NCBI GenBank assembly: GCA_947470515.1
Contig: CANITF010000022.1
Coordinates: 1 to 50,176, forward strand
DNA length: 50,176 bases
Direction: 5' to 3'
From: Flavobacteriales bacterium
GTDB taxonomy: Bacteria; Bacteroidota; Bacteroidia; Flavobacteriales_D; Crocinitomicaceae
In this document: positions 5,912 through 34,825 of the stretch, one piece after another
How the letters are laid out: every line of letters starts with the position of its first letter
Position numbering within the stretch: position 1 is the first letter of the stretch
Notes under the pieces: model-generated
Databases searched by the model: none
What the model saw: only the letters and a program-made list of their open reading frames with translations
Told to the model about the DNA's origin: nothing
Made by a program: the position numbers and the translations under genes

Positions 5912-8900
5912 ATGAAAAATCCTATTATTAACGTTGAGGAGATTAGAATCCTATCTTTTCTTGATCATCAAAAAATAACTTCAAAGAAGTCTAAATTCAT
6001 TTTACGGTTCCTTTTGGTGGCTATGTGTTCCTTTTTTCTAAAAAGCGAGAACGCACGAGCTCAATGCACTGTTGTGGCAAATGCTGTTCCTGGAGTTACA
6101 CTAACTTACGTGCAAGGCGGAGGAACAAATGCTACAGGTGTTGCTTTCAATCCAACCATGAGTTTATATTATGCTGCAATTGCAGGAAATACTGGTTTTC
6201 CCTTAGAGACATTTTCAGCTGCTGGAGCGCCTTTGTTTCAAACGAATACAGGGTTTGATATGCGCGGAATGTGGTGGAATCCCAATACCAATCAATTAGA
6301 AAGTAATGGATACAATACTGGTGGAATATGGAAATACAACCTCAATGCTTCTGGTTATGCTTTGAATACGGGAATTTCAATTTTCACAGGAATGAATCAG
6401 CCCACAGCTCAATCGAATGGCGACTATAACTGTGCAGACAACGAAATTGTTTATTACAATGCAGGAGCAATTATGCGTAGAAACAGAACGACCAACGCCC
6501 TAATCGGTTCGCTAGCAATTACTGGATTACCAGTTGCTTTAGGAAACTTAAACGATAATACGATCTGTTATACGGATTGTTTAGCACATGAATATGCCCT
6601 TTTAGATTATGTTTTGAAACGCGTATATTTTATCAATAAGGCAACAGGAGCTTACAATGGAATGTCTCAATTACCAACATCTGCTGTTACAAATGTATCT
6701 TTTAGAACTTCTTGGGCCAACGGGTTATTTTGGATCTATAACACAGCAAATCTAACATGGTACAGCTATCAAGTTTTGACTGGAATAAGCGGAGTATGTT
6801 CTTTTCCGGTTTGTACACCTCCTACTCTTGTAATCAATAATTTAACTGCTTGTTCTCCAAATACAGTCAATTTGAATACAGCTATCAATGTTGCATCTAG
6901 TCCTGGAAATGCTACTTTTTATTCAACTTTAGCCAATGCAAATGCTGCCACAAGTCCAATAAGTAATATTGCAGCTGCATCAGGAACGTATTACGTAAGA
7001 CTTGAAACTTTAACGGATGCAACTTGTTTTTCTGTTGCTGCAATTACCGTTGTAATAAATCCTATTTTTAGTTCAGTAGTAGCTGTTACAACTTGCCAAA
7101 ATTCAACTGTTAATTATCCTGACGGAACATCTGCTGTAATATCTGCTAATACTTCACATGTTTCAAATTTATTAACTGCTGCAGGATGTGATTCAATTAT
7201 TACAACAAACGTAACAATGAATCCAGTTTATGCAATAACAAGTAATGTAACAGCTTGTCAAAATTCATCGATCACATATCCAGACGGAACGACTGCAGTT
7301 ATTACTGCTAATACTTCACATGTTTCAAATTTGTTGACTGCTGCAGGATGTGATTCAATTATTACAACAAACGTAACAATGAATCCAGTTTATGCAATAA
7401 CAAGTAATGTAATAGCATGTCAAAATTCATCCATCACATACCCAGATGGAACGACGGCAGTTATTACTGCTAACACTTCACATATTAGTTCGATCCTTAC
7501 ACTTGCAGGATGTGATTCTATTATCACAACAAACGTTACGATGAATCCATTACCTGTTTCAGGAACAAATGGCGCAATCTCTTTTTGTTCTTCTGATCCA
7601 GTTTCCAATTTATTTACTCAATTAGGAGGAACACCTACTGTTGGAGGAGTGTGGTCACCAACTATGGCTTCAGGTTCAGGGATTTTCAACCCTGCAATTG
7701 ATGCAGCTGGAACATATACCTATTCTGTGACGAATCTATGCGGAACAGCGAGCTCAACGGTAAGTGTAACAATTGCTTCCAATTCAAATCCAGGGTCAAA
7801 TGGATCAATTACCTTTTGTTCAAACGATCCTTCCTCTAATCTTTTTGCTCAACTTGGAGGAACACCGACTATTGGAGGAGTTTGGTCACCAGCTCTTGCT
7901 TCAGGTACAGGATTATTTAACCCTTCAATAGATCCTTCTGGAACATATGTGTATACGATAACTTCTTCTTGTGGTGTTTTTACAGCGCAAGTTATTGCAA
8001 CTGTAAATCCTGCAGATAACGCAACATTTACGATGCCTTCCTCAACAAATTGCACCAATGATGTGAACCCAATTGCAACCATAACGGGAACGCTTGGCGG
8101 AACTTTTACGATGACAGGTGGCGGTGTGATTAACGCTGTTACTGGAGAAGTAGATGTGGCCGCATCTGGTGCCGGAACATATGGAATCATATACACAACA
8201 ACTGGACCTTGTGCAGCTACCTATCTTTATAATTATTCTATATTAGATGACGCAGATGCATCAATTATTGCTGCCGGTCCATTTTGTCAATACGATTCTC
8301 CTTATCAACTTCAAACGGTTAACAGTGGAGGAACTTGGTCAGGAACTGGAGTTTCAGCAACAGGAATGTTTGACCCATCAATTGCGAATAGTGGCATGAA
8401 TTCGATAACCTACACGATCCCTGGGATATGCGGAGATGCTCAAACAATTCAAATAGATGTTACTGCAACGCCAACAGTTTCAACAATTGCAGACACGACT
8501 ATTCGATTAGGATCTCCTGTAGATTTAATTTCTACAAGTTCAGCAGCGATTTTTTCTTGGTCACCGTCAACATGGTTGGATTGCAGTTCTTGTTTAAATC
8601 CAATTTCCACACCACAAGAAACAATTACATATATTATTACAGCGGAAGACAATGGCTGTTATGCAACAGATGAAGTGACCATTACAGTTTTATACGACTT
8701 AGTTGTTTTCGTCCCAAATATCTTCTCCCCGAATGGAGATTCTGACAATGATGTATTATATGTTAGAGGAAAAGGAATCGTAAATGTGAAATTTGTTGTG
8801 TTTGATCGTTGGGGAGAAAAGGTATTTGAATCCACCAGTTTAGAAGATGGCTGGGATGGAAATTTCAGGGGTAAAAAAGTCAATCCTGCAGTTTTTGTTT

Positions 8901-8971
8901 ACTACGTTGATGTTGTTTATAAAGACGGTTCAACAGTTAGTAAAAAAGGTGATGTAACTTTAATTCGATAA
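5912..8971 (+). CDS. Secreted repeat-rich protein with type IX (type B) C-terminal sorting domain
   Basis: A 1019-aa protein. A long basic N-terminus precedes a hydrophobic signal stretch ending ENARAQ near residue 51. Residues about 55-300 form a WD/beta-propeller-like domain with no clear family. Three copies of a 54-aa repeat (CQNSS..YPDGT..GCDSII..) and two copies of a 77-aa repeat (FCS.DP.SNLF.QLGGTP..GGVWSP) follow. The C-terminus (about 925-1019) is the CHU_C/gliding-motility domain with VPNIFSPNGDSDND, FDRWGEKVFES and DGWDGNFRGK motifs. That domain directs export by the type IX system and attachment or release at the surface. The likely role is a surface adhesin or matrix protein. It is followed after 2 bp by a PorP/SprF gene, the usual partner of type B cargo. 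The repeat units suggest expansion by slippage or recombination. Confidence 0.9.
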   Translation: MKNPIINVEEIRILSFLDHQKITSKKSKFILRFLLVAMCSFFLKSENARAQCTVVANAVPGVTLTYVQGGGTNATGVAFNPTMSLYYAAIAGNTGFPLETFSAAGAPLFQTNTGFDMRGMWWNPNTNQLESNGYNTGGIWKYNLNASGYALNTGISIFTGMNQPTAQSNGDYNCADNEIVYYNAGAIMRRNRTTNALIGSLAITGLPVALGNLNDNTICYTDCLAHEYALLDYVLKRVYFINKATGAYNGMSQLPTSAVTNVSFRTSWANGLFWIYNTANLTWYSYQVLTGISGVCSFPVCTPPTLVINNLTACSPNTVNLNTAINVASSPGNATFYSTLANANAATSPISNIAAASGTYYVRLETLTDATCFSVAAITVVINPIFSSVVAVTTCQNSTVNYPDGTSAVISANTSHVSNLLTAAGCDSIITTNVTMNPVYAITSNVTACQNSSITYPDGTTAVITANTSHVSNLLTAAGCDSIITTNVTMNPVYAITSNVIACQNSSITYPDGTTAVITANTSHISSILTLAGCDSIITTNVTMNPLPVSGTNGAISFCSSDPVSNLFTQLGGTPTVGGVWSPTMASGSGIFNPAIDAAGTYTYSVTNLCGTASSTVSVTIASNSNPGSNGSITFCSNDPSSNLFAQLGGTPTIGGVWSPALASGTGLFNPSIDPSGTYVYTITSSCGVFTAQVIATVNPADNATFTMPSSTNCTNDVNPIATITGTLGGTFTMTGGGVINAVTGEVDVAASGAGTYGIIYTTTGPCAATYLYNYSILDDADASIIAAGPFCQYDSPYQLQTVNSGGTWSGTGVSATGMFDPSIANSGMNSITYTIPGICGDAQTIQIDVTATPTVSTIADTTIRLGSPVDLISTSSAAIFSWSPSTWLDCSSCLNPISTPQETITYIITAEDNGCYATDEVTITVLYDLVVFVPNIFSPNGDSDNDVLYVRGKGIVNVKFVVFDRWGEKVFESTSLEDGWDGNFRGKKVNPAVFVYYVDVVYKDGSTVSKKGDVTLIR
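7088..7573 (+). repeat. Three tandem 162-bp (54-aa) coding repeats
   Basis: The units begin at 7088, 7250 and 7412, exactly 162 bp apart. Units 1 and 2 share a run of about 100 nearly identical bases including silent sites (from the GCTAATACTTCACATG stretch through AGTAATGTAA), so the duplication is recent. Unit 3 has diverged in its second half. Each unit holds two Cys (TCQNS/ACQNS and AGCDSI), possibly a disulfide per module. Confidence 0.95.
7562..8023 (+). repeat. Two tandem 231-bp (77-aa) coding repeats
   Basis: Units start at 7562 (GTNGAISFCSSDP) and 7793 (GSNGSITFCSNDP), 231 bp apart. Both contain NLF.QLGGTP..GGVWSP and a terminal CG. A more diverged copy can be seen near 8280-8430 (FCQYDSPYQLQ, GGTWSG). 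Ig-like beta-sandwich modules are the likely fold. Confidence 0.9.
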
Positions 8972-11407: not shown

Positions 11408-12868
11408 ATGAACACAACAAGCAACACGTTTGGCGCTTTAAAAGCAGCAGGATACACTTCCAAAAGTATTAAAACAGAACTTCGAGACAACTTAATTGCA
11501 GCACTTAAATCTGGTGAGACAACTTTCCCTGGAATGCATGGATATGAACAAACAGTTATTCCGCAACTAGAGCGTGCAATCCTTTCGAAACACAACATCA
11601 ATTTATTGGGATTGCGTGGACAAGGAAAAACGCGTATTGCTCGTTTGATGATCAATTTATTAGATGAATATATTCCAGTTGTTTCTGGTAGTGAAATGAA
11701 CGATGATCCCTTCAATCCAATTAGCCTTTTTGCGCGTGATTTAATTGCTGAAAAAGGAGATGAAACACCAATCGTTTGGATGCACCGTTCGGATCGCTTT
11801 TTTGAAAAATTAGCTACGCCAGATGTTACAATTGCAGACTTAATTGGAGACATAGACCCAATAAAAGCGGCGAATTTAAAGTTGAATTATTCGGATGAAA
11901 GAGTCTTGCATTTTGGAATGATTCCTCGTGCGAACCGTTGTATTTTTGTAATCAATGAATTGCCTGATTTACAAGCGCGTATTCAAGTTGCTTTGTTCAA
12001 TATTTTAGAGGAGGGCGATATTCAGATTCGTGGATTTAAATTACGTCTTCCGTTGGATCTTCAATTCGTGTTTACAGCAAATCCAGAAGATTACACCAAT
12101 AGAGGAAGTATTGTTACCCCGTTAAAAGATAGAATTGGCTCACAAATATTAACGCATTATTCAGCTGATATTAAAACAGCAAAGACAATCACAACCCAAG
12201 AATCTGACAAATTGGAAAATCGTCATTTTAACGTTTATGTTCCTGAGTTGGCAAAAGATATTTTAGAACAAATAGCATTTGAAGCACGCGAGAGCGAATA
12301 CATTGATCATAAAAGTGGTGTCAGTGCGCGAATGAGTATCACAGCATACGAAAATTTGGTAAGTACTGCAGAACGAAGAGCAATCTTGAACGATGAGAAG
12401 GAAACAACTGTTCGCTTCAGTGATTTGATTGGAATGATTCCTTCCATCACAGGAAAAGTTGAACTTGTTTATGAAGGAGAGCAGGAAGGAACATCTTTCG
12501 TTGCTAATCATTTAATCAGTGAAGCAACGAAAACACTATTCTTGACCTATTTCCCAAAAATTGAAAAGCTCAAAAAGCCAGATCAAGAGACACCATATGA
12601 TGCAGTATTAACTTGGTTTTTTGAAGCAGATTCATTCGAATTGGAAGATGAAATGGATCAAGAATCTTATGCCTCTGCATTGAATGACATTGAACCTTTG
12701 AAAAAACTTATTCTGAAATACCAGCCAAACGTTGCAGCAATTGATATGCCTTTTTTAATGGAATTTGTCTTATGGGCATTGGTTGATTTGAAACAATTAT
12801 CAAAACGAAGAACTGCGAATGGAATGTCGTTTAATGACCTTTATGATAATTTGTTGAAAGGAATATGA
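11408..12868 (+). CDS. MoxR/Mg-chelatase-like AAA+ ATPase
   Basis: The protein has 486 aa from the chosen ATG 4 bp after the VWA stop. An earlier in-frame ATG at 11372 would add 12 residues and overlap the VWA gene by 32 bp. Walker A is G68-L-R-G-Q-G-K-T75. The Walker B/sensor block is IFVINELPDLQARIQVAL, in which NE replaces the common DE. ANPEDYTNRG and TPLKDRIG (sensor/arginine-finger region) follow. The NELPDL form is normal for this Mg-chelatase-like MoxR subgroup, so loss of activity is not implied. The protein probably forms a hexameric ring that uses ATP to remodel a client through the upstream VWA protein. The last codons overlap the metallo-hydrolase start by 4 bp (ATGA), indicating translational coupling. 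Confidence 0.9.
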   Translation: MNTTSNTFGALKAAGYTSKSIKTELRDNLIAALKSGETTFPGMHGYEQTVIPQLERAILSKHNINLLGLRGQGKTRIARLMINLLDEYIPVVSGSEMNDDPFNPISLFARDLIAEKGDETPIVWMHRSDRFFEKLATPDVTIADLIGDIDPIKAANLKLNYSDERVLHFGMIPRANRCIFVINELPDLQARIQVALFNILEEGDIQIRGFKLRLPLDLQFVFTANPEDYTNRGSIVTPLKDRIGSQILTHYSADIKTAKTITTQESDKLENRHFNVYVPELAKDILEQIAFEARESEYIDHKSGVSARMSITAYENLVSTAERRAILNDEKETTVRFSDLIGMIPSITGKVELVYEGEQEGTSFVANHLISEATKTLFLTYFPKIEKLKKPDQETPYDAVLTWFFEADSFELEDEMDQESYASALNDIEPLKKLILKYQPNVAAIDMPFLMEFVLWALVDLKQLSKRRTANGMSFNDLYDNLLKGI

Positions 12869-13896
12869 GTAAACAATTTGGGGGTAAAGTTACTTCTGAA
12901 GAGATCTCAAATTATAGCCGTTCCAAACATTGGGACGGTAAAAAATTCAACAACTTGGAAGAAACAAAGATGGACATTCCATTTAAAGCGATTCCGAAGC
13001 TGTTGTATAAACAATTATTCAAGCGTAAGAATGGACAACCGAAAGAGAAAATCAAGTTTGTCCCATTCAATTCCACAACTTTTTTGGCTCCTTCTGAGCA
13101 GATGAAATTTATTTGGTATGGGCACTCTGCCCTATTGATGCGTTTAAAAAACAAAACGATTCTCATTGATCCAATGTTTGGAACAGATGCAGCGCCAATT
13201 GCTCCTTTTTCTATTAAACGCTTTAACTCCATTACAACAGACTTCATTTCGGATTTACCCGAAATAGATATATTACTAATGTCCCACGATCATTACGACC
13301 ATTTGGATTTAAAAAGTATCCAATTGTTAAAAGGAAAAGTGAAAAACTTTTACGTTGCATTAGGAGTTGGAAGGCACTTGATCAGCTGGGGAATTAACCC
13401 TTCAGCTATCACAGAATTTGATTGGTGGGAGAAAAAGCAATACGAAGACATCGATTTCACCTTTACACCTACACGTCATTTTTCGGGTAGAGGAATGCGT
13501 GACCGTTTCAAAGGATTATGGGGAGGTTGGGTTATCAAAACGGATACTGAAAACAATTGGTTTAGTGGTGACGGAGGTTATGGAACACATTTCAAAGAAA
13601 TTGGGGATAAATTGGGTCCTTTTGATTTCGCTTTTATGGAGTGTGGACAATACAATAAATTATGGCGTCCCATTCACCTATTTCCAGACGAATGTATCCA
13701 AGCAGCAATAGATGCAAACGCAAAAAAGTTAATGCCCGTTCATTGGGGAAGTTTCAATTTATCGGATCACGCTTGGACGGAACCAGCAGATCAATTTGTT
13801 GAAGAATGCAAAAAAAGTGCAATCCCTTATCTCACACCAATGCTTGGTGAATTGATCACGCCAATGTTGCAGGTGGAGAATAAACATTGGTGGTAA
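12865..13896 (+). CDS. Metallo-beta-lactamase-fold hydrolase (UlaG/NAPE-PLD-like)
   Basis: A 343-aa protein. The metal-binding signature H141-D-H143-Y-D145-H146 is preceded by IWYGHSALLMRL and ILIDPMF, and followed by TPTRHFSGRG, SGDGGYG and PVHWGSF. This is the two-metal MBL fold in the form found in UlaG and N-acyl-phosphatidylethanolamine phospholipase D relatives. It lacks an evident signal peptide, so cytosolic action is likely. It shares the ATGA overlap with the AAA+ gene, making a VWA-AAA-MBL operon. The substrate is unknown; phosphodiester or lactone bonds are plausible from the family. It may be the client or effector of the VWA/AAA pair, but that is inference from position only. 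Confidence 0.87.
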   Translation: MSKQFGGKVTSEEISNYSRSKHWDGKKFNNLEETKMDIPFKAIPKLLYKQLFKRKNGQPKEKIKFVPFNSTTFLAPSEQMKFIWYGHSALLMRLKNKTILIDPMFGTDAAPIAPFSIKRFNSITTDFISDLPEIDILLMSHDHYDHLDLKSIQLLKGKVKNFYVALGVGRHLISWGINPSAITEFDWWEKKQYEDIDFTFTPTRHFSGRGMRDRFKGLWGGWVIKTDTENNWFSGDGGYGTHFKEIGDKLGPFDFAFMECGQYNKLWRPIHLFPDECIQAAIDANAKKLMPVHWGSFNLSDHAWTEPADQFVEECKKSAIPYLTPMLGELITPMLQVENKHWW

Positions 13897-13968
13897 AAGC
13901 CTCGCCGTCCTTCGATGTCCGTTACCGAAATCCTTCGACTTCCTTATTAATGACTTTTATGTCTTCAA

Positions 13969-15045
13969 CTAAATTTTCCCCAATTCCTTTAATAACGAAT
14001 AGTGTCCAATTACTGCTTGTCTAAATGTGTCGTGAACAATATATGGCGTGTTAAATTCTTTGGCCGTGTTTTTAATGATTGTTGAGATTTTCGGATAATG
14101 AACATGAGAAACATCCGGAAAAAGATGATGCTCAATTTGATAATTTAAACCTCCGAAAAAATAGGTTAGTAGTTTATTATCCATGGCAAAATTGGATGTT
14201 GTCATTAATTGATGAATATGCCAATTTTCACGCTCAAAATTGTCATTTTTATCTCTGAAAGTACATATAGGAACAACATGAGCCGTTTGAAAAATAATTG
14301 TCATAACGACTCCAGCAACAACAAGCATGGTAAGAAACATTGATATTACCATTCCATTGGAAAGATCCAAATAAAGCATCGGAACAATAAGAAATATCAA
14401 GAAAAAAATGAACTTTTTTATCAAAACACTAAATAGAATTGAGATAAATTCAAGTCCAGGTTGAATAAATCCCATCTTTTTGTACTTAAAGATCTTCATG
14501 AAATCTTTCACTGTGACCCATTCAATAATAAGTAATCCATAAATAAAGGTCGCATAAAGATGTTGGTATTTATGAAACCATTTTTTAGGTTGATCTTTCG
14601 TAAATCGAAAAACAAAACGCGTTTCGATGTCATCATCCAAACCACTAACATTTGGATATGTATGATGCAACACATTATGTTCAATTTTCCATATTTTAGA
14701 TTCTACTCCAATTGCAATAACTGGAATTTCAAGGATCAGTTTTATATATTTATTTTTTGAATATGAACCATGCACAAAATCATGCATAACCGTAATGCCC
14801 ACAAATGCTTGTCCCAGACCGAATACAGCCCATAAAACAAATAGAAGGGGAATATTTTCTATTCCTCCAAAAAGAATAATTAAATAAATTGTAAAATAAT
14901 ACCCTACAATGAATACCGTTTTATTGACCATTTCCTGATTTGCCCTGCGATCAATTTTATTCATCTTGAAAAAAGAATTCACACGGCTGTTTAAAGCTTC
15001 GGAAAAGGCACTATTTGTATCTTTCGAGAAGGAATACTTTTGCAT
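13969..15045 (-). CDS. Membrane fatty acid desaturase (front-end/acyl-lipid type)
   Basis: A 358-aa protein with four or more membrane helices and the three histidine boxes of integral-membrane desaturases: H88-D-F-V-H92, H123-N-V-L-H-H128, and QIEHHLFP near the C-terminus. A Gln at the start of the third box is typical of front-end (delta-5/6-like) desaturases, here without a fused cytochrome b5 domain. It should insert a double bond into an acyl chain using a di-iron centre, O2 and an external electron donor. It borders the FAAL/P450/sulfotransferase cluster and is divergent from the sulfotransferase gene across 162 bp, which may hold both promoters. Substrate position cannot be assigned. 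Confidence 0.92.
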   Translation of the reverse strand: MQKYSFSKDTNSAFSEALNSRVNSFFKMNKIDRRANQEMVNKTVFIVGYYFTIYLIILFGGIENIPLLFVLWAVFGLGQAFVGITVMHDFVHGSYSKNKYIKLILEIPVIAIGVESKIWKIEHNVLHHTYPNVSGLDDDIETRFVFRFTKDQPKKWFHKYQHLYATFIYGLLIIEWVTVKDFMKIFKYKKMGFIQPGLEFISILFSVLIKKFIFFLIFLIVPMLYLDLSNGMVISMFLTMLVVAGVVMTIIFQTAHVVPICTFRDKNDNFERENWHIHQLMTTSNFAMDNKLLTYFFGGLNYQIEHHLFPDVSHVHYPKISTIIKNTAKEFNTPYIVHDTFRQAVIGHYSLLKELGKI

Positions 15046-15207
15046 GCGTTAAAAAATATTCGTTGAAAAATTCGTAAATCAAAGTGAAAGTTAATAAGTT
15101 AAAATCAACAAAGAATAATATTGTGTAATTTTCACCTTAAATAAGTGATGTTGATCAATCAATAATGGTTCTTTCAAAGAATCTCAATTAAATGAAACAC
15201 CTCAAAA

Positions 15208-16296
15208 ATGAATAAATTTGGAAGGAAAATTCCTTTTTTTCCTGTTTTTTCCCTGTTCAAAATGGCTTTTCAAAATGGGGGGATTAGTTTTGGCAAAACG
15301 CCTCTTTTTATTGGTTACGTCATTCGCTATTTACTATTGGAACCCTTTAGAATCGCTGAATTACTTATTTATAACAGAAGATTAAAAAACCACGTTTTAA
15401 CCGCTGATCCAATTTTCATATTGGGCCATTGGAGAAGTGGCACTTCTCATCTCCAAAATTTAATAGTACAAGATCCAAGAAATACTACCACAAGTATTTA
15501 CCAATTTTTATTTTTCGATAATTACTTCTTATCCGAAAAATGGCTAAAAAAACCTTTGAATTCTTTTTGCCGCATTTTCAAAATTCCCTATTCATTTCAG
15601 AGAACACTGATGAATCTTGATTTACCAGGAGAATTGGAATCTGCCATGTGTTCCATGTGCAGTTCGAGTAGTTATACTTGGGGGCATATCTTCCCTAGCC
15701 AATTCGAGAAATGGTCCAATCAATTTATTGCTCTAAATAATACAAGAAACGCTGAATCATGGATTGAAGATTATGACTATTTGATTCGAAAACTTTCCTA
15801 TGGATCAAAGGGTAAACAAGTCATTGTAAAGTCACCTGGAGACACCGCGAGAGTTGAAGTTTTACTTAAAAAATACCCGTCTGCCAAGTTTATTTACATT
15901 CATCGGGACCCAATTGATGTCTTCCATTCAAGCAAATATCTTTGGAATGTTATTCAACAACAAAATAGTTTTCAAAGAATATCAGATGATGAAATTGATC
16001 ACATCGTTATAAAAACATATAAACTTGTCATTGACACGTATTTGAAATCAAGAAGTTCTATCCCAGAAGGTCAATTGGTAGAAATAAGTTTTACGCAAAT
16101 TCAGCAAGCCCCTTTGGAAACAATGAAAACAATTTATAAATTGTTAAGCTTGGGTGATTTTCCTGAAAACAAACTTCAGCCTTTTATTAAGAAAAATGAA
16201 TCCTTTAAAATTTCTCACTACAAAACATCACCAGAACTTCTAAGCAAGTTAAATCAAGAATGGGGTTCTTGCACATTTGAATTGTTAGAAAAGTAG
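15208..16296 (+). CDS. PAPS-dependent sulfotransferase
   Basis: A 362-aa protein of the sulfotransferase_3 type. The 5'-phosphosulfate loop is G73-H-W-R-S-G-T-S80 followed by LQNLIVQDP. The 3'-phosphate-binding region is FIYIHRDPIDVFHSS (about residues 228-242). It should transfer a sulfo group from PAPS to a hydroxyl (or amine) of an acceptor. There is no signal peptide; a hydrophobic stretch near the N-terminus (about 30-55) could be membrane-associated. It converges on the P450 gene with only 5 bp between the stops. Within this cluster a lipid alcohol is a plausible acceptor, but sugars or peptides cannot be excluded. No PAPS synthesis genes are visible nearby. Confidence 0.9.
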   Translation: MNKFGRKIPFFPVFSLFKMAFQNGGISFGKTPLFIGYVIRYLLLEPFRIAELLIYNRRLKNHVLTADPIFILGHWRSGTSHLQNLIVQDPRNTTTSIYQFLFFDNYFLSEKWLKKPLNSFCRIFKIPYSFQRTLMNLDLPGELESAMCSMCSSSSYTWGHIFPSQFEKWSNQFIALNNTRNAESWIEDYDYLIRKLSYGSKGKQVIVKSPGDTARVEVLLKKYPSAKFIYIHRDPIDVFHSSKYLWNVIQQQNSFQRISDDEIDHIVIKTYKLVIDTYLKSRSSIPEGQLVEISFTQIQQAPLETMKTIYKLLSLGDFPENKLQPFIKKNESFKISHYKTSPELLSKLNQEWGSCTFELLEK

Positions 16297-16301
16297 ATCA
16301 C

Positions 16302-17660
16302 TTATTCTTTAACCCGCGTAAATTTCATATTCACCGGTCCATCGGGCTTAAGTAGCATCATGGCATGCAAACCAACATCCTTTTTTGACACCAATTCAAA
16401 ATCATATTTTCGTATAATAGCACTCATCACCAAGAGTATTTGCATTTTAGCCATGTTTTGACCGATACAAACTCTTGGTCCACCGCCAAAAGGTATATGT
16501 GCAAAAGGATGTTGCTTTTCATTTAAACTCAAATCAAAACGACTTGGATCAAATTTATCTGGATCCGGCCAATACTCTTCGTTGTGGTGGGCACCATAGA
16601 TATATGGAATTACTGTTGTTCCCTTCGGAATTTTAAATCCTTTGAATTCATCATCTGCTTGCGCTTCGCGGTCTATCATCCAGAACGGAGGGTAAATTCG
16701 CATGGCTTCGTCCAATACGGCAATCGTATAATTAAGGCTATGCAGTCGTGAATAATTAACCTCATCATCCCCAAAATTCGCTTCAATTTCCGTTCTGATC
16801 TTTGTAACACATTCTGGATGTTTGGACATGATGTAGAACGCCCAAGTAGCTGCTGTTGTTGATGTCTCATTTCCGGCAACGAGTAGCTGAAGTATTTCAA
16901 CCTTTACTTTTTCATCCGTCATATATTCATCGGTCCCTTTGAATGGTGTGGATAGAATCAGCTCTAAAATATCACTTCCTTCACCCAATTTCTTCCTTCT
17001 TTCTTCGAGATAATCGATAATTATTTGATCTCCTTCTTTTCTGATTTTATGGTATTTTTTATCTTGTCCAGTCAAGAAATACCAAGGCATCAAATATGGC
17101 TGAACAACTTTTTTCACTATGTATCTCTGAATATCTGCTATTGCCGCTGCGAATTTTTCGAGTTCCTCCTCTTTCATCTGACTTCCAAAAAGTGATTTCC
17201 CGACAGAACGCAAGGTGAACCTCACCATTTGATCGTGAATGTCCAATGGACCTTTCTCCACTGCAAGGTCAAAATCATGCATAAAGTCATTCAGTACTTG
17301 TAGTTGCAAAGGCAACATTTCAGATAGCCTACCTCTTGTGAAGCCCATACTAAGCAGTTTACGCTGACGTAACCAATAATCACCATGGCTGTTTGTTAAA
17401 CCTATTCCCTGAAATTCAACAAATCGCTCTGTTTGAATGTGCGATTTGTGATAATTGTCATTGTTGTCTTTTAGGACATGCTTCAATAGTTCAGGATCAG
17501 CGGTAACAACGGTATTTCGAATCCCAAACCTTAGCTGAAAGGTAGGACCTAATTTCTTTCTGTACTTCTCAAAAACAACTACAGGGCTTTTCAACATTTC
17601 TCTTGTATCCAGCAGCGTTTCAGCGATTGAAATTTTAGGTATCCCTGTTTTACTTGACAT
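16302..17660 (-). CDS. Cytochrome P450
   Basis: A 452-aa P450 with the full set of signatures: I-helix oxygen-binding AGNETSTTA, K-helix ExxR (DEAMRIYP), the PERF-like DPDKFDPSRFD, and the haem loop FGGGPRVCIG with proximal Cys398. No membrane anchor is seen, so it is probably soluble and needs separate ferredoxin/reductase partners, which are not in the window. The closest general resemblance is to fatty-acid or alkane hydroxylating CYP4/CYP102-like enzymes. The gene starts 9 bp after the stop of the FAAL-ACP-reductase, so the two share a transcript. Probable role: hydroxylation or other oxidation of the acyl chain handled by that enzyme. Confidence 0.95.
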   Translation of the reverse strand: MSSKTGIPKISIAETLLDTREMLKSPVVVFEKYRKKLGPTFQLRFGIRNTVVTADPELLKHVLKDNNDNYHKSHIQTERFVEFQGIGLTNSHGDYWLRQRKLLSMGFTRGRLSEMLPLQLQVLNDFMHDFDLAVEKGPLDIHDQMVRFTLRSVGKSLFGSQMKEEELEKFAAAIADIQRYIVKKVVQPYLMPWYFLTGQDKKYHKIRKEGDQIIIDYLEERRKKLGEGSDILELILSTPFKGTDEYMTDEKVKVEILQLLVAGNETSTTAATWAFYIMSKHPECVTKIRTEIEANFGDDEVNYSRLHSLNYTIAVLDEAMRIYPPFWMIDREAQADDEFKGFKIPKGTTVIPYIYGAHHNEEYWPDPDKFDPSRFDLSLNEKQHPFAHIPFGGGPRVCIGQNMAKMQILLVMSAIIRKYDFELVSKKDVGLHAMMLLKPDGPVNMKFTRVKE

Positions 17661-17669
17661 AATCTAAAG

Positions 17670-20600
17670 TTATATTATTTCGTTTTTATCCATAAACTTG
17701 TGAATTCCAACGACAACTTCTTCAAGTGAAGAGTCCTCTTTTCCCCAAGGAGAAAGATCTCGGTACTTCACATAGTTGCTATTGTCGTAACGTTTAAATT
17801 CCATTGTACTAATATTATCCACTGAGCGCACAAGAAAATTCAATAAGGGGAAAAGAATATCTTCTTTTTTGCAGCGACCAATAACTTCTGGAACAAATGC
17901 TTTCAAAGGAAAATTCACAAACTTTTTACCAATAATCTTCCCAAGTATTTCGGTAACATCTTGCATGCTTGAGTACGTATCTCGGGTTACGTGAAACGAT
18001 TTCCCACAGCTTTCTTCTATATTGGAAATAGCCACAATATTATTTGCGCCAAGATCAGCAGGGGTAAAACTGACTTGATTTTGTGCGCTCGTCCCTATTC
18101 CATATTTTACCATAAAAGATAATAAGCGAATTGAAATATCATAATTATACCCTTCTCCAGTAATGGAAGGAGAAATTAATGCAGGTCTAAAAATCCTGGC
18201 TTTCAGTCCTTTTTTCATTGCGTTAAGCACAATTCTGTCTGAAACCCATTTGCTTTGACTATAACCAAAATCTAATAATTCCATCTTGTCATTTGAATCA
18301 CCTTCCAATAAAGTATCCTTTACTGACCATCCAAAAATGAATGTAGTTGAGATGTGATTCAAAATTTTAGTTCTTTCTGTCATGGCCAAGCGAATAACTT
18401 CATTCGTTCCACCAACATTTATTTTTCGCATGGATTCATAATCCAATAAATAATTCACTATTGCACCATTGTGATAGATTGAATGGATGTTTTTGGTTAA
18501 AAACTCCCACTCCGATTCATTTACTCCTAGTTTTGTTCGGGAAATGTCTCCACAAATAGGAACCACACGGTCTTCAAAAGCAGCCTTCATTTCTGCAGAA
18601 GTGGTCATGAGCGAAAATGATTCTCTCAAACGATTCATTCCTTCCTCCTTATCTTTTGCTCTAACGATTACATAAATCGTTTCAGAATTCTGTTCAAGTA
18701 AACTTTTTATAAGGAATGGACCAAAAAAACCTGTTCCACCGGTAAGTAGAATATGTCCATTTTCTGTAGTATACGGTTTTAAATTGGCTTGTTCTGTTTC
18801 ATTTGAAGTATAAGCAGCATCTCTTTCCATCATTTCCATTTCCACTTTTTCAAATTCTTTGTGGAGTTTGTTAAAAGCATGTTTAAAACGGAATTTTGCT
18901 TGAGGAGAAGCAGTTTGAAGTCCTTGAAGAATCTCGAACAATTCAGACACTGCAATTTTTTGTATTAAACGAAGGTCAATTTCATTTGATAGATCATCGA
19001 AGCCTTGAAGATTTAAGAAAGCCTTTAGATCATGGGCAAATTCAGCCAGTTTAAGTGAATCAAAGCCAGCATCTCCGATTGACATGTTTTCCAATCCAGA
19101 AAGTTTATAGCGCTTGAAAATTGTTCGAAAATCTTTCTCATCACCTTTAAACTCATTAACTACCTCTTCATTATTCTTTTCTGAAAAAGTTAATTCATTG
19201 TTTTCTAAATTTACTTGAGCAATAATTTCCAATTCATTTAGAACATAACGGTTTTTATTTTGATACCTCATTATCTTTCCAGAACTCGTTTTTGAGATCG
19301 TTCGAGCAGGAACAAATACGATCGATTCGGCATTAATCCCAGTATATTTCGTTAGTTTATTATTGATCTCAACAGCATCTGGTACTTTTTTATTATTCTT
19401 GATTCCCACAATTACAACAAGTGCCTCCCGTCCTAATTTATCTATTGAAAATGCAGCAACACATCCTTTTCTCACTAAAGGGTCTTCTTCGATTATCATT
19501 TCTATATCCTGCGGGTAATAATTATGGCCACGAATGATAATCATGTCCTTTGATCTTCCACATACGTACAATTCATCCTTGTACATAAACCCAATATCTC
19601 CTGTTCTAAGCCAATTTTCACCTTCCAATTCAGCCTCAAAAGTTTCTTTTGATAAATCTTGTTGGTTCCAATATCCTTCACATTTACTCAAGCCATTCAC
19701 CCATATTTCACCTACGCCATCAAAATTGACTTCTTTCAAATTTGAAGTTATATCTACAATTTTAATTTTTGTATCGCCTAAAGGTTTTCCACAACTCATT
19801 AAATCAACCGCCGATTTGTCAACTGATTCATTCAGTTTTACTACATTATTTTTCAACGATTCTGAATCAAAAGAATTGACACTTCTTCCATAGTTGGAAA
19901 CTGCCAAAGTGAATTCAGCCAAACCATATGCAGCAAAAAAACTTTCAGCTTTTAAACCGTATGATGAGAATTTCTTTAGAAAATCTTTATAGATAGTCGT
20001 ACTTATAGGTTCCGCTGCTGTCATTAAAAACCTAAGCGTACTCAGATCAATTCTTGAAAGTGTTTCCTCTGGTATTTTACCTGGAATCAGACAATACTCA
20101 TATGCAAAATTTGGTGCAGAAGAAGCAGAACCACCATATTTCGTGATTGTCTCTAGCCAAAGAGCCGGTCGTTGAATAAAATCTATTGGTGAAAAACCAT
20201 AGGTCGTCCCCCCTTTTAAAGCAAAGAAAATATAGTAACCAATTAGTCCCATATCATGATATTGTGGTAACCAAGAAACACCAATTGGCAGGTGGTCCAC
20301 AACAATATCACAATTGTTAAGGATATTTTCATGCGTTACAATAACTCCTTTGGGATTATTTGTAGAGCCCGAAGTATATTGCAAAAATAATATATCCGAA
20401 TGTGCTTCCTGAAAATTGATCGAGCCGTCCGATCCAGAATCATCGCTAACAATCCATTCAAGTTGAGAAATATAATTGACTTTTTTAGAAAATATTTCCG
20501 TATTTTCTCTAGATAAATTCACTTTTATAGACCAATAATAGGATCGGTCAGTCAAAATAGCGGATGCTTTACAATCTTCAGCAATGAAGTTCATTTTTCT

Positions 20601-20903
20601 AACAGAAGATTGGAATCCTTGCGCCGTTGGAGGAGAAACAGGTACAGGAATCAATCCTAACTTAACGCAAGCAAAAAAAGCACATATCATTTCTATTCCT
20701 GGAGGGTATGCCAACAGAAGTCGGTCTCCAAGTTTTAATGAATATTTGTCATTTATAAACGATGCAATGCCATTCGTTCTATGCTCAAATTCCTGATAAG
20801 TATACGATTCTTTAACATCTCCTTTTAAATCAAGAAAAACATATAATAGCTTATTTGGATTTTCCTTGGTTCTTGAGGTTAACTCTGTTAATATTGAAAC
20901 CAT
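17670..20903 (-). CDS. Fatty-acyl-AMP ligase - ACP - thioester reductase (CAR-like)
   Basis: A 1077-aa three-domain enzyme. Residues about 1-560 are an adenylation domain of the FAAL class: phosphate loop LQYTSGSTNNPKG (about 177-189), the FAAL signature WLPQYHDMGLIGYY, APNFAYEYC, and LRTGDIGF. An acyl-carrier domain follows (about 595-670) with the pantetheine site GFDSLKL, Ser616. The C-terminal part (about 715-1070) is an NADPH-binding extended SDR reductase with LLTGGTGFFG (about 718-727) and catalytic Tyr881-x3-Lys885 (YSQSK). The order matches carboxylic acid reductases: a free fatty acid is adenylated, loaded on the ACP arm, and released as an aldehyde (or alcohol after a second reduction). 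The required phosphopantetheinyl transferase is the next gene upstream (77 bp) and the P450 the next downstream (9 bp). Confidence 0.93.
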   Translation of the reverse strand: MVSILTELTSRTKENPNKLLYVFLDLKGDVKESYTYQEFEHRTNGIASFINDKYSLKLGDRLLLAYPPGIEMICAFFACVKLGLIPVPVSPPTAQGFQSSVRKMNFIAEDCKASAILTDRSYYWSIKVNLSRENTEIFSKKVNYISQLEWIVSDDSGSDGSINFQEAHSDILFLQYTSGSTNNPKGVIVTHENILNNCDIVVDHLPIGVSWLPQYHDMGLIGYYIFFALKGGTTYGFSPIDFIQRPALWLETITKYGGSASSAPNFAYEYCLIPGKIPEETLSRIDLSTLRFLMTAAEPISTTIYKDFLKKFSSYGLKAESFFAAYGLAEFTLAVSNYGRSVNSFDSESLKNNVVKLNESVDKSAVDLMSCGKPLGDTKIKIVDITSNLKEVNFDGVGEIWVNGLSKCEGYWNQQDLSKETFEAELEGENWLRTGDIGFMYKDELYVCGRSKDMIIIRGHNYYPQDIEMIIEEDPLVRKGCVAAFSIDKLGREALVVIVGIKNNKKVPDAVEINNKLTKYTGINAESIVFVPARTISKTSSGKIMRYQNKNRYVLNELEIIAQVNLENNELTFSEKNNEEVVNEFKGDEKDFRTIFKRYKLSGLENMSIGDAGFDSLKLAEFAHDLKAFLNLQGFDDLSNEIDLRLIQKIAVSELFEILQGLQTASPQAKFRFKHAFNKLHKEFEKVEMEMMERDAAYTSNETEQANLKPYTTENGHILLTGGTGFFGPFLIKSLLEQNSETIYVIVRAKDKEEGMNRLRESFSLMTTSAEMKAAFEDRVVPICGDISRTKLGVNESEWEFLTKNIHSIYHNGAIVNYLLDYESMRKINVGGTNEVIRLAMTERTKILNHISTTFIFGWSVKDTLLEGDSNDKMELLDFGYSQSKWVSDRIVLNAMKKGLKARIFRPALISPSITGEGYNYDISIRLLSFMVKYGIGTSAQNQVSFTPADLGANNIVAISNIEESCGKSFHVTRDTYSSMQDVTEILGKIIGKKFVNFPLKAFVPEVIGRCKKEDILFPLLNFLVRSVDNISTMEFKRYDNSNYVKYRDLSPWGKEDSSLEEVVVGIHKFMDKNEII

Positions 20904-20980
20904 TAATTTTTAATTAATTCTTAATTTATTCTAACTAATACCACTAAAACACGAACTTTCGATGTTTAATTCAAAACCTT

Positions 20981-21709
20981 TTAAATGTCTTTGTTCCCAA
21001 TTGGAAAGATTTTAATTGAGTTTACTTTCCCATTCACAGCAACTGCAATGCGAAAATTCTCAGCTAAAGTAAAACTTTCCAACGACCACTGTTCCTTCTC
21101 ATTTAACGCCCATTTTGTAGCCCTCAATTCTGCTTTTTCATTCTTCACAAAAGACACCTCCAATTGATCAATTGGAAAAGTTAATCCTGCACCTTTTGCT
21201 TTTAAAAATGCCTCTTTTCTTGTCCAACAATTGATGAAGGCTTCTTTTTTATCTTCTTTTGGCTGATTGTTAAATACTTCCAATTCATTTGATGAAAATA
21301 TAAAACTACTCATTTTAAGAAAATTCACCTGTCTATCCAAATATTCGAGATCAACACCTATATCAAAATGGCGCGTAAAACCAAATAATACTGCATCCTC
21401 AGCATGCGCCATATTGAATTGAACATCGTTGTTCTTTAAGAATGGTTTCCCGTTCACGCCATAATCAAAAATAATTTCCTTGGGATTCATCGAAACATAT
21501 TGACCAATCAATTTACGAAGTAAACCTCTCGAAATAATAAATCGATCTCTTTCTTTCTCAATGCGATATTTATTTGCACGTTCCATTTCTGCATCAGATA
21601 AAAGTTTCAAATAAACTGATGGCCTTTCATTTACAATAAAAACATAGTGAAGATGCACTTCATTATTTAGAAGAGAAAAATCGGGTTGGCTTTTCTTAAT
21701 GTTATTCAT
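20981..21709 (-). CDS. Sfp-type 4'-phosphopantetheinyl transferase
   Basis: The protein has 242 aa from the chosen Met; an in-frame ATG at 21748 would add 13 residues that look non-conserved. Motifs of the Sfp/AcpT superfamily: FNMAHAEDAVLFG, G-V-D120-L-E122 (Mg-binding) and W162-T-R-K165-E166-A. It transfers the phosphopantetheine arm of CoA to a carrier-protein serine. Its position directly upstream of the FAAL-ACP-reductase makes Ser616 of that enzyme the obvious target; a genome usually has a separate AcpS for primary metabolism. It is divergently transcribed from the second desaturase across about 117 bp. Confidence 0.92.
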   Translation of the reverse strand: MNNIKKSQPDFSLLNNEVHLHYVFIVNERPSVYLKLLSDAEMERANKYRIEKERDRFIISRGLLRKLIGQYVSMNPKEIIFDYGVNGKPFLKNNDVQFNMAHAEDAVLFGFTRHFDIGVDLEYLDRQVNFLKMSSFIFSSNELEVFNNQPKEDKKEAFINCWTRKEAFLKAKGAGLTFPIDQLEVSFVKNEKAELRATKWALNEKEQWSLESFTLAENFRIAVAVNGKVNSIKIFPIGNKDI

Positions 21710-21826
21710 AGTATCGAAATAAAAATACGAATCATTAATGATATACACTTATTCATTATTCAAAAGAGCATCAAGGACTATAATTTGAATAAACATTCTT
21801 ATCTTTCACGCTAAAATTTAATTCGA

Positions 21827-22834
21827 ATGATATCAAGTAATAGGCAAACAGATTACGAAAGAGCAATTCAACTATTGAAGCCTTTTACAATCAAAAATAC
21901 TTCAAAAGCCAACTTCCAATTCTTTTTTACTTTCATTATGCTTTGGTCAAGTATTTACTCCAGTTATTACTTTTTAGGCAACTATAACTTGGTTTTATTA
22001 ATAACGATCCCAACAACAGTTGTTTTCTTATGTCGAAGTTATGTTATTCTTCATGATTGCGGACACAATAGTTTTTCAAATAACAAAACATGGGAAAATA
22101 GCGTAGGAACAATTTTAGGTTTCGGAATCATGATATCATTTTCAATGTGGCGCTATATTCATAATAGTCACCATAACCATGTGGGAAATCTTGATAAACG
22201 TGAATGGAACCCAGAAGTATGGACTATGACCATTGAAGAATACAAAGCTAGTTCTCTTTTTAAAAGGTTAATTTATCGTTTCATGCGTTCGCGTTTTACC
22301 AGATTTTTTATTGTTCCTACTATCAACTTTGGACTTATTTTTCGATTTTTACATCCAAAATTTTCTAGGCAGGTCAATCTTATTGTGTTGATTCACGATA
22401 TTATTTATGTTGCATTGATATGGTTTTTATTGAGCTACATGTCGATTATAACACTCGTAATTGTCTTTTTTCTACCACTTGCATTATTCTATAACATTGC
22501 TGCTTTTTCCTTATACACTCAGCATCAATTTGAAGAAACGTATTGGGAAAAGGACGAAAATTGGAACTATTTTGATGCTTCCTTTTCTGGATCAAACTGT
22601 GTTACTGCTCCACATTGGTTTAGATGGATGACTGGAAATGTATTATACCATAATATTCACCATTTGTGTTCAAATATCCCAAGTTATAAGTTGGATAAAG
22701 CACAGAAGGAACTTGGTACGTTGCTTAACTATAAATTAATTCCAATTTCTGAAGGATGGAATATGCTAGGTAAAAAACTATGGGATGAAGAAAATAAAAA
22801 ATTAGTAGGATTTAGCAGTTTAAGAAACAAATGA
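21827..22834 (+). CDS. Membrane fatty acid desaturase (DesA/omega-type)
   Basis: A 335-aa integral-membrane di-iron protein. Histidine boxes: H76-D-C-G-H80, H112-N-S-H-H-N-H118 and HNIHHL near residue 278. Four to six hydrophobic segments are visible. The third box starts with His rather than Gln, so it belongs to a different subgroup from the desaturase at 13969-15045 (methyl-end or beta-carotene-hydroxylase-like FA desaturase). It is therefore likely to act at a different position on the chain, or to perform hydroxylation or acetylenation, which related enzymes can do. The gene faces the PPTase/FAAL/P450 operon divergently and is probably controlled from the same intergenic region. Confidence 0.92.
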   Translation: MISSNRQTDYERAIQLLKPFTIKNTSKANFQFFFTFIMLWSSIYSSYYFLGNYNLVLLITIPTTVVFLCRSYVILHDCGHNSFSNNKTWENSVGTILGFGIMISFSMWRYIHNSHHNHVGNLDKREWNPEVWTMTIEEYKASSLFKRLIYRFMRSRFTRFFIVPTINFGLIFRFLHPKFSRQVNLIVLIHDIIYVALIWFLLSYMSIITLVIVFFLPLALFYNIAAFSLYTQHQFEETYWEKDENWNYFDASFSGSNCVTAPHWFRWMTGNVLYHNIHHLCSNIPSYKLDKAQKELGTLLNYKLIPISEGWNMLGKKLWDEENKKLVGFSSLRNK

Positions 22835-22868
22835 TTCTACCCATTTTCATTCTGAATATATTATCTCT

Positions 22869-23618
22869 CTACTTAAAAAACCCTAAATAGAATGTCAACC
22901 AATAGGCAGGTGAAACAAGAACAGCCATTTCATATGCACTATCATACGCAAGGCCTGCTGCCTGAAATAATGGACCTGGTTGTTTAAACTCTTTGGTGTC
23001 ATGGTCATATATTTCAACCATTCGTACGCCGAGATTATAATTAATTAGATAGAATAGCATTACCAACAAAGAATACGCAATAATATATATAAAGGCATGC
23101 ATTCGATATGGAGAGGGCATTAGAAAAAGTGCCGTCAAACATCCTGTATTGATAAGAGCCAGCAACATTACCGCTTTGGGTTTATTCATCGCCCTTCGAC
23201 TTATCAATGGTAATTCTCCTTTTTCAAGGTCCCGTTTATCAGACCATCCCAAATAATGTGCAGAGAAACCAACAACAATTACAGCGCTAACAATACCTAA
23301 TAAGAAATTACCAGCAATGAACTGGTCAGCAACAAAATATGCAGGTACACAGTAAGCAGGACCTTCGGTCATTGATTTTATGACAATTTCTATCGTTTTT
23401 GGCAATTTCTTCCCATAAACATATACCACACTTTTGCGCATCCCACTTAATGCCAAACCTGATTCTATGATAAGATGAATGATACTACTAGAGCAAAAAA
23501 TGATAAAATAGTTTATACCAAATTGCCAAGTGAGATAACACGTTATGGTAAGAATAAACAAAAGAACATTAAAATTTGTCGTCCCATGTTTCATTGTAGA
23601 TTTACGAACTGAATACAT
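22869..23618 (-). CDS. Unrecognised multi-pass membrane protein at cluster edge
   Basis: A 249-aa protein with about six or seven hydrophobic segments (roughly 15-35, 37-55, 88-105, 107-125, 150-168, 175-195 and 225-245). Conserved-looking polar motifs sit between helices: HLIIESG, MTEGPAYC, and LGWSDKRDLEKGELP. Acidic residues in or beside membrane segments recall membrane isomerase or carrier folds, but I do not recognise the family. It converges with the second desaturase (34 bp between stops) and closes the lipid cluster. A role in modifying or exporting the cluster's product is possible. An alternative start is Met9. Function unknown. Confidence 0.7.
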   Translation of the reverse strand: MYSVRKSTMKHGTTNFNVLLFILTITCYLTWQFGINYFIIFCSSSIIHLIIESGLALSGMRKSVVYVYGKKLPKTIEIVIKSMTEGPAYCVPAYFVADQFIAGNFLLGIVSAVIVVGFSAHYLGWSDKRDLEKGELPLISRRAMNKPKAVMLLALINTGCLTALFLMPSPYRMHAFIYIIAYSLLVMLFYLINYNLGVRMVEIYDHDTKEFKQPGPLFQAAGLAYDSAYEMAVLVSPAYWLTFYLGFFK

Positions 23619-23718
23619 TGAAATTATCGTTTATAAAATTGAATTCAAAAGTAATAAGAATTGGTGGGAATAAGCTCGGCGTCTAGACTGTCGCTCGACG
23701 ACCTTCGACCTTAAACAC

Positions 23719-24405
23719 TTATTTCTTTTTCGTGAAAAGCGCATCACTCAAACCTGTATTGACTTTGTAATCCGTCAGCGTTATCGTAATAATCCCTTTG
23801 CTATTGGGTTTAACTTTTTTATCAGTTGTGGTTTTATTGATGTCTGCAGCAACACTTTTCGGAAGTTTAAATGCTTTGACGTCAATCTCGAAAACCAATT
23901 GACTTGGTAAACCAAAACTCACTTTATCACCATACGTATACGTCGTGTTCACGGATCCATTACTTTTTGTCGTGATTTGTGATTTCATAATAACCGAACG
24001 TTTTGTGTCGATCCATAATTTTGCAAGTACAATTTCACTGCTTTCTCCATTTGGAATAACGGTAATTAATTTTGTCATTACACCACCAATTTTCGAAGTG
24101 TCTCCTGCAACTGCTATATATGATTTCTTATTTGCTAGAAACGTATTTATTTCTGTGAATCCTTGTTTTGGTAAGATGACAATCCCTTTCGAAACTACTT
24201 TGAACTTATCTTTCTGCTTGAAATAGATAGTCGCTTTAGAAGGTAAGATCTTGATCATTGGAATGTTTGCTTTCACATTAGCAGTCACCGTATAATCTTT
24301 CACCGTATTCAGTTTTGTTACAACTTTGCTTAGAATATCATCCGCTTCTTGGGATGTTACGCCAAATTGAATTGCGATGATTAAGAGGGTAAGGAAGTTT
24401 TTCAT
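23719..24405 (-). CDS. LolA-like periplasmic protein of an ABC exporter operon
   Basis: A 228-aa protein with a signal peptide (to about residue 19, VTSQ). It continues as repeated amphipathic beta strands with the pattern ILSKVVTKLNTVKDYTVTANVK, VVSKGIVILPKQG and AKLWIDTKRSVI, which matches the LolA/outer-membrane lipoprotein-sorting beta fold. Such proteins carry a lipid or lipoprotein across the periplasm. Its start codon overlaps the stop of the ABC permease by one base, so it is part of that operon. It could pick up the substrate exported by the ABC transporter. Alternative: a lipoprotein-like sensor with the same fold. It has no lipobox. Confidence 0.72.
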   Translation of the reverse strand: MKNFLTLLIIAIQFGVTSQEADDILSKVVTKLNTVKDYTVTANVKANIPMIKILPSKATIYFKQKDKFKVVSKGIVILPKQGFTEINTFLANKKSYIAVAGDTSKIGGVMTKLITVIPNGESSEIVLAKLWIDTKRSVIMKSQITTKSNGSVNTTYTYGDKVSFGLPSQLVFEIDVKAFKLPKSVAADINKTTTDKKVKPNSKGIITITLTDYKVNTGLSDALFTKKK

Positions 24406-29280: not shown

Positions 29281-30273
29281 TTAAATCGCGTATTCTTTCT
29301 TATTCAACCAAATCAATTGTACTTCCGTGGTTTCTTGAAGTCGTTCAGCTAGATTGAAATAGCGTTTTGATAACGAGGATAAGAAATCTTGTGCTTTATT
29401 TCCTTCGGCACTTAGTCCTTTTAGCTTATCTATTCCCCAGAATTTTACCAAGTGATCAATAATATTCGCATAGTCATGACTGGCATAAACGCCAATTTTC
29501 TGTGTAATTGAAGCATAATTCACGTATTGCTTTTTGTCGGTGCCAAAATCCATCAGAGATGATGGCATGACTATTTTCTTTTTCATCATTTGAACAAATG
29601 CGGCAAGTCCACCGTTTGGATCGGTTTCAAACACTTTGCTCATGAAAAACTTATATGCTTTTTCGTGTAAAGCTTCTTCACCAGCGATAGTATTACATAT
29701 TTTCCCAAGGAGTTTGTCCCCCGACTTGAATGCTATTTTTCCCGTATTTACATGTGATATTTTCGTGGCGCGTTCTTGAAAAGAAGTATAAATTAAGCCA
29801 TTGTACGGATCGGCTTCTGTTTGAAGTTCAATACCATTGTATAGTAAACGTTGAATCGTAATCTCTACTTCGCGCATGTCTACACGACCACTGAGGTATA
29901 AGTATTTATTCAGTAAATCGCCGTGACGGTTTTCTTCCGCTGTCCACAGTCGAGACCAACGTACCCAGGCATTTGCACTTGCCACTGTGCGATCTTCGTT
30001 TATTCCTTTCAATAAATTGAAAAAAGTTTGATAGCTAGGAAGGGCTTCTTCTGTAATCATATTCCCAATCAAAGAGACCAATACAGTGTCTGGAACTTGA
30101 GCTATTCCTTCCTGAAGCAAACGGACTTGATCGGCAAAATCATCATCAGCAGCGTTTGGAATAAAATCAGTTGGTTGCCAACTCGTTTCTGGTGTTTTCA
30201 TTTTTTCATCGATGAATTGTCCAACGTGTTTTTCAATTGACTCAATTACTTCCATTTTTTCTTGGAATACCAT
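29281..30273 (-). CDS. Soluble acyl-ACP desaturase (stearoyl-ACP desaturase family)
   Basis: A 330-aa soluble di-iron protein of PF03405. Iron ligands can be placed: Glu in EEALPSY (about 75-76), E113-E114-N-R-H117 in the EENRHG motif, and E199-E200-A-L-H203 in the second EExxH. It should introduce a double bond (commonly delta-9) into an acyl chain carried on ACP, supplying unsaturated fatty acids for membrane lipids. It is the third, structurally unrelated desaturase in the window. The region upstream of its start has a TACATTTG box at 30474-30481 on the minus strand, about 200 bp away, giving a long 5' leader if used. It is monocistronic. Confidence 0.93.
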   Translation of the reverse strand: MVFQEKMEVIESIEKHVGQFIDEKMKTPETSWQPTDFIPNAADDDFADQVRLLQEGIAQVPDTVLVSLIGNMITEEALPSYQTFFNLLKGINEDRTVASANAWVRWSRLWTAEENRHGDLLNKYLYLSGRVDMREVEITIQRLLYNGIELQTEADPYNGLIYTSFQERATKISHVNTGKIAFKSGDKLLGKICNTIAGEEALHEKAYKFFMSKVFETDPNGGLAAFVQMMKKKIVMPSSLMDFGTDKKQYVNYASITQKIGVYASHDYANIIDHLVKFWGIDKLKGLSAEGNKAQDFLSSLSKRYFNLAERLQETTEVQLIWLNKKEYAI

Positions 30274-34818: not shown

Positions 34819-34825
34819 CTTTTTG

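Follow-up and report, generated by a model that had tools for sequence, protein, structure and literature searches.

A horizontally transferred seven-gene cluster around a fused FAAL-ACP-reductase in a Crocinitomicaceae genome: a probable lipid pathway with reductive release

Genes of the cluster

The sequence analysed here is a stretch of 50,176 nucleotides of a Flavobacteriales bacterium of the family Crocinitomicaceae (assembly GCA_947470515.1, contig CANITF010000022.1), hereafter the window, and its subject is a block of seven adjacent genes built around a 1077-aa protein that combines a fatty acyl-AMP ligase (FAAL), an acyl carrier protein (ACP) and a thioester reductase. All seven open reading frames (ORFs) at 13969-23618 were confirmed, and the ORF list, Pfam and NCBIfam uphold, essentially as given, the families and coordinates that a first-pass annotation of the sequence had assigned to them (Table 1), the start codon of the phosphopantetheinyl transferase (PPTase) gene being uncertain (GTG or an internal ATG). 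That annotation had also noted an absence of polyketide synthase (PKS) and nonribosomal peptide synthetase (NRPS) modules, in agreement with the lack of any PKS/NRPS elongation domain in the 21 window proteins scanned with Pfam. A promoter scan returned 36 sites against 40.5 expected, and 2 terminators against 6.0 expected, neither count being informative.

Table 1. Coordinates of the seven cluster genes, the inferred inserted segment and the two flanking genes in the window
Feature	Position	Strand	Basis
des1, membrane fatty acid desaturase	13969..15045	-	PF00487 7.4e-35; His boxes HDFVH / HNVLHH / QIEHH
PAPS-type sulfotransferase (Sulfotransfer_3)	15208..16296	+	PF13469 1.6e-26
Cytochrome P450	16302..17660	-	PF00067 8.6e-97; signature PPFWM[IV]DR
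1077-aa FAAL-ACP-thioester reductase	17670..20903	-	AMP-binding and NAD_binding_4 in Pfam; NCBIfam, PDB matches, conserved residues
Sfp/HetI-type PPTase	20981..21748	-	PF01648 1.1e-17; NF042922 154.9 bits, below cut-off 370
des2, second membrane desaturase, related to DesA (delta-5)	21827..22834	+	PF00487 5.1e-32; NF052548 204.5 bits, below cut-off 500
Orphan multi-helix membrane protein, 249 aa	22869..23618	-	Without Pfam, NCBIfam or PDB match
Inferred inserted segment	13894..23667	.	Flanking ATTGGTGG octamers; empty sites of relatives
Metallo-hydrolase gene, left neighbour, outside the module	12865..13896	+	Adjoins right neighbour in G007
LolA-like gene (under Pfam cut-off), right neighbour, outside the module	23719..24405	-	Pfam; flank comparison

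Relatives of the 1077-aa protein were taken from genome contigs as the best 80 of 156 (39-97% identity), four of which (L028, L030, L075 and L076) have no ORF reaching 75% of the length and were kept out of the FAAL tree and the column counts. The protein is laid out as a FAAL domain (~1-560), an ACP with carrier Ser616 and a thioester reductase (~717-1077) with Ser852, Tyr881 and Lys885. In NCBIfam the adenylation domain scores best against an NRPS/PKS model, of which it matches positions 1-580, and next best against models of fatty-acyl-AMP ligases, none of these matches reaching its curated cut-off, and PDB matches of the protein include chains named fatty acyl-adenylate ligase and the FadD23 and FadD32 AMP ligases; judged by these matches, the domain is FAAL-like. 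A serine occupies the carrier position in 77 of the 77 aligned rows, PP-binding was found in 27 of 36 alignment members (best E 7.1e-5), and a profile matched many ACP chains weakly (best E 0.015). The reductase scores 213.6 bits against TIGR01746, just above the cut-off of 213.35, its Ser, Tyr and Lys are kept in all 77 rows, and its best match in PDB is MxaA (180.5 bits), the best chain named carboxylic acid reductase reaching only 72.6. Domain matches and conserved columns together bear out the earlier reading of the protein as a FAAL-ACP-reductase.

The cluster P450 is the sole Pfam p450 match of its genome, and its signature PPFWM[IV]DR recurs in 47 of 48 P450 rows from several phyla, with the exception of L086. 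FAAL and P450 distances run in parallel (r 0.95, 0 of 500 shuffles), a pattern that common descent alone could also produce, and in an Edaphobacter genome the P450 of the cluster reaches 400 bits, the runner-up P450 only 163. In PDB, the window's P450 scores best with a putative P450 (7wzl, 185 bits), LUTEIN DEFICIENT 5, CYP46A1 and CYP3A4, with CYP4B1 lower (123 bits). Insect CYP4G is a P450 decarbonylase that converts aldehydes to hydrocarbon, and a similar action on a released aldehyde could be read from the position of the P450 gene, which lies on the same strand as the reductase gene at a gap of 9 bp; we consider this very improbable, as no CYP4G is among the best 60 PDB matches of the P450 and the sulfotransferase would be left unexplained.

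The position of des1 is filled by membrane desaturases across phyla, the third His box reading QxxHH in 11 and HxxHH in 40 of 51 rows, and the His boxes of des2 are invariant in 10 rows. A single orthologous des1 family was considered and rejected, two clades filling the slot. An acyl-ACP-type desaturase (FA_desaturase_2, 4.6e-121) at 29281-30273 (-), 5.7 kb from the block, is unrelated and outside the transferred segment. The sulfotransferase carries the motif GHWRSGT, invariant in 11 rows, which we take to be a 5'-phosphosulfate-binding motif of the type that binds 3'-phosphoadenosine 5'-phosphosulfate (PAPS). The genome encodes an adenosine 5'-phosphosulfate (APS) kinase, so that a supply of PAPS is plausible, and it holds two Sulfotransfer_3 matches besides the cluster sulfotransferase; sulfation appears plausible in this lineage.

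The 249-aa membrane protein has no match in Pfam or NCBIfam, only weak and unrelated matches in a Pfam scan of 11 members, no match in a profile search of PDB sequences, and nothing convincing in a fold search of PDB with its fairly confident model (mean predicted local distance difference test score, pLDDT, 86.7; best E 1.3). The 11 sequences share invariant polar residues including H48, E52, R61, E85, D127, R141, R142, D226 and E230, suggesting that the protein is more enzyme-like than a passive part. In a sample of 399 genomes of the order, its profile matched 8, among them the window's own, each time inside this cluster, as seen in the window, in the relative G023 and in the other six; the L015 copy, missed by the ORF caller, was recovered by tblastn.

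Conservation and distribution

The seven genes form one unit, beyond chance adjacency. The full set is present in seven of the eight genomes with the membrane protein, L130 being without an adjacent PPTase gene, and gene orientation is as in the window in six of the eight, the membrane-protein gene being flipped in L128 and L129. The same gene set recurs in diverged clusters, whose proteins are 26-83% identical to their seven counterparts in the window. Neighbours that do not occur together in relatives would have spoken against a common cluster; they were found conserved together. It could be argued that the genes share no function and keep company merely through one recent transfer, given that the block has moved as a unit (see below), an explanation made extremely improbable by the recurrence of the set in diverged clusters and of its core in other phyla.

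Among the 80 loci, 55 have a P450 gene at most 4 kb from the FAAL gene (a count that takes in L086, whose P450 lacks the signature) and 53 a desaturase gene, and where at least 3 kb is available on both sides (50 loci) each is near the FAAL gene in 39. The remaining genes are less widespread near the FAAL gene and largely found in Bacteroidota: sulfotransferase in 11 loci (9 in Bacteroidota), PPTase in 10 (9), the membrane protein in 10 (10) and des2 in 9 (9). The first-pass annotation had not recognised the combination from Bacteroidota; it is not limited to the window's genome, related clusters being present in several bins assigned to this phylum by record title. One locus titled Chitinophaga pinensis (L020) has match coordinates identical to those of G021, from the window's genus, and the title is probably wrong.

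The core of FAAL-ACP-reductase, P450 and membrane desaturase occurs sporadically in Acidobacteriota and other phyla, with Edaphobacter lichenicola and Bryocella elongata among the carriers by record title. In Acidobacteriota the P450 and desaturase genes are mostly divergent from the FAAL gene, and nearby are genes for two further proteins, one small and without an assigned family (31 loci), the other large (34 loci; the one member scanned is MMPL). Neighbours in other relatives include short-chain dehydrogenase/reductase and flavin-containing monooxygenase genes, a cyclopropane-synthase-like gene (L070) and PAP2 genes. A released aldehyde or alcohol might be incorporated into a larger membrane lipid, such as an ether lipid, a sphingoid-like lipid or a glycolipid, with a sulfated head group, consistent with the membrane desaturases and orphan membrane protein of the block, the PAP2-type genes beside some relatives (L083 above, L019 just below the Pfam cut-off) and the MMPL-type gene of Acidobacteriota. 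We regard this as unlikely, since no acyltransferase, glycosyltransferase or head-group gene is found among the seven; the objection carries less weight for the relatives, where only a minority of neighbour families were assigned.

Occurrence is sporadic within the genus (3 of 25 other genomes) and in the family of G402 (6 of 100, G402 itself and one partial match counted). This patchy presence suggests a special metabolite rather than a housekeeping lipid.

Transfer between species

The block has recently passed horizontally from species to species within one genus, as indicated jointly by empty sites in relatives, a different location in G023, another species, and a divergence below that of the chromosome. 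In G007 the two flanking genes are direct neighbours, with 33 bp between the alignments, and both the block and its left neighbour are missing at the site in G014 (133 bp) and in G005 (54 bp), the latter being, at 92% identity, the closest of six genomes over a chromosomal control region. G023 holds the block as 9,688 bp with 96.6% nucleotide identity to window 13968-23655, adjoining a homologue of window 34584-35235. Synonymous divergence between the window and G023 is 0.01-0.19 for the seven block genes against 1.27-1.73 for plsY, the adjacent 1538-aa gene and prmA, and the ratio of non-synonymous to synonymous divergence (dN/dS) is 0.04-0.27 for six of the seven genes, indicative of purifying selection. 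Misbinning of the G023 contig was suspected from a 653-bp end stretch that is 92% identical to the window, against 80% for the G023 chromosome. This was rejected: the block contig and the control-region contig share an exact end overlap of 109 bp and therefore belong to one genome, and the same stretch is also 90% identical between G023 and G005.

The octamer ATTGGTGG is identical at both junctions (13886-13893 and 23660-23667) and lies inside an imperfect direct repeat of ~60 bp. By itself the octamer lacks significance, three copies being found where 0.77 per strand are expected; the longer imperfect repeat has a score of 39, and 300 single-letter shuffles gave at most 25. It may represent a target-site duplication or repeat-mediated recombination. 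No transposase or integrase is present among the seven genes of the segment (ORF list, Pfam). By eye, the 3' end of the metallo-hydrolase gene was apparently altered by the insertion. This left neighbour is itself patchy, being present in 5 of 26 genus genomes (the window's included, one partial) and not found in G005. Repeats resembling TCGACGACC are abundant, by eye, in the intergenic window 23670-23715 and in L116:3230-3345, the same locus in relatives, and may be recombination sites or sites like repetitive extragenic palindromes (REP). A transposase-like ORF, also judged by eye, lies near the empty site of G005 (L115:32-1177).

Elsewhere in the window, the 1538-aa protein at 44407-49023 (-), encoded between plsY and prmA, has no Pfam match at E 0.01, and each of the six relatives searched gave a DNA match to its region. 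At 5912-8971 lies the gene of a large, internally repetitive protein of 1019 aa (1073 aa in G005), and several offset alignments with G005 suggest that repeat number may differ.

Proposed pathway and known systems

The block is a real, functional-looking and mobile variant of FAAL-started lipid pathways. We favour, with somewhat better than even confidence, a horizontally mobile seven-gene lipid pathway without PKS/NRPS extension that ends in reductive release. The PPTase would arm the ACP, and the FAAL domain would load a free fatty acid onto this fused carrier. The chain, probably still attached to the carrier, would then be modified by the P450 and by one membrane desaturase or both before release by the thioester reductase, with a primary alcohol likelier than an aldehyde as the product. 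The sulfotransferase may sulfate an alcohol group, either terminal or made by the P450, and the orphan membrane protein may provide a lineage-specific membrane step, in the form of a further modification or export. The first-pass annotation had likewise read the genes as one pathway, for which the parts and their conserved linkage speak; we infer the substrate, the step order, the sulfated alcohol or aldehyde chemistry and the role of the membrane protein from gene content.

Several observations weigh against this proposal. The 80 loci were picked by FAAL sequence, so that the linkage counts describe close relatives only, and the sulfotransferase gene, encoded on the other strand, accompanies the FAAL gene in just 11 of them. 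In the window protein by itself the ACP match is weak (PP-binding E 0.096 in Pfam), and a fold search with a model of the ACP region (pLDDT 84.7) gave no solved structure below E 5. The two clades that fill the des1 slot may not be orthologous, and the membrane protein differs between the window and G023 by 2 synonymous and 4 non-synonymous changes, too few to judge selection. An ACPS-type PPTase is present as annotated, but the genome has two such matches, so the cluster PPTase is not the sole one and the earlier label "dedicated" is not borne out. On the release level, the sources point both ways: with MxaA as best match, the listing of myxalamid synthase among four-electron, alcohol-forming reductase systems (PMC2835699) makes an alcohol likelier, and myxalamid S is cited elsewhere as an aldehyde case (PMC11659414).

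MxaA-type terminal reductase domains are the best-scoring solved counterpart of the block's reductase, which differs in being fed by a single fatty-acyl carrier rather than a PKS/NRPS chain. Carboxylic acid reductases have the same succession of adenylation, carrier and reductase domains in a single protein. In the block, however, adenylation is FAAL-like, the reductase is nearer MxaA by score, and a conserved tailoring cluster surrounds the gene. FAAL-ACP didomain starters and the cyanobacterial olefin synthase pathway share the FAAL with ACP, and the latter includes a sulfotransferase (PMC11837247), whereas the block has no PKS module, a stand-alone sulfotransferase and reductive instead of decarboxylative release.

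The JamABC cassette of jamaicamide and the polyyne clusters (cepacin, collimonin, caryoynencin, ergoyne and protegencin) likewise employ a FAAL, an ACP and membrane desaturases, the latter acting on a fatty acid bound to the carrier. The block has this adjacency, with its ACP fused between FAAL and thioester reductase, and adds the P450, the sulfotransferase and the orphan membrane protein. As the first-pass annotation had proposed, des1 and/or des2 could act as acetylenases on acyl-ACP, like JamB, giving an acetylenic fatty alcohol or aldehyde upon reductive release. FAAL, ACP and membrane desaturase do make up the JamABC set, the block has two desaturases, and ten actinobacterial polyyne clusters have a P450 in place of thioesterase and rubredoxin (PMC8406139). 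However, polyyne clusters are defined by FAAL, ACP, three desaturases, thioesterase and rubredoxin (PMC8406139), and a third membrane desaturase, thioesterase and rubredoxin are all missing among the seven genes (Pfam; rubredoxin was looked for in these seven genes alone, to the exclusion of ORFs <100 aa in the block and of the remaining genome). The block is therefore not a polyyne cluster. Moreover, Bacteroidota and Acidobacteriota are not named as cassette carriers in section 5 of that source (PMC8406139), and des2 is near the FAAL gene in just 9 of 80 loci. The adjacency stands, yet the option is weakened by the missing hallmarks, and we consider an acetylenic product quite improbable.

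With the favoured reading of a mobile, reductively terminated lipid pathway, a fuller version can be put forward tentatively, short of even confidence: free fatty acids would be converted into sulfated, oxygenated and unsaturated (possibly acetylenic) fatty alcohols with the participation of a new membrane-enzyme family, as the sulfated branch of a cross-phylum FAAL-ACP-reductase/P450/desaturase class that is coupled to an MMPL-type transporter in Acidobacteriota. No description of the seven-gene combination was found in open-access literature by titles and abstract starts, which is weak evidence of absence. In the available text of a 2025 FAAL review, the section on multidomain FAALs treats PKS and NRPS assemblies, and the terms "reductase", "aldehyde", "P450" and "Acidobacteri" are absent by word-start matching (PMC11837247).

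The cluster points to a class of small lipid pathways in Bacteroidota and Acidobacteriota, recognisable by a FAAL-ACP-reductase together with a PPFWM[IV]DR P450, whose members could be filed as fragments by mining centred on PKS and NRPS. Named carrier strains, and an orphan family seen here only with the pathway, make both the product and a possible new enzyme testable.

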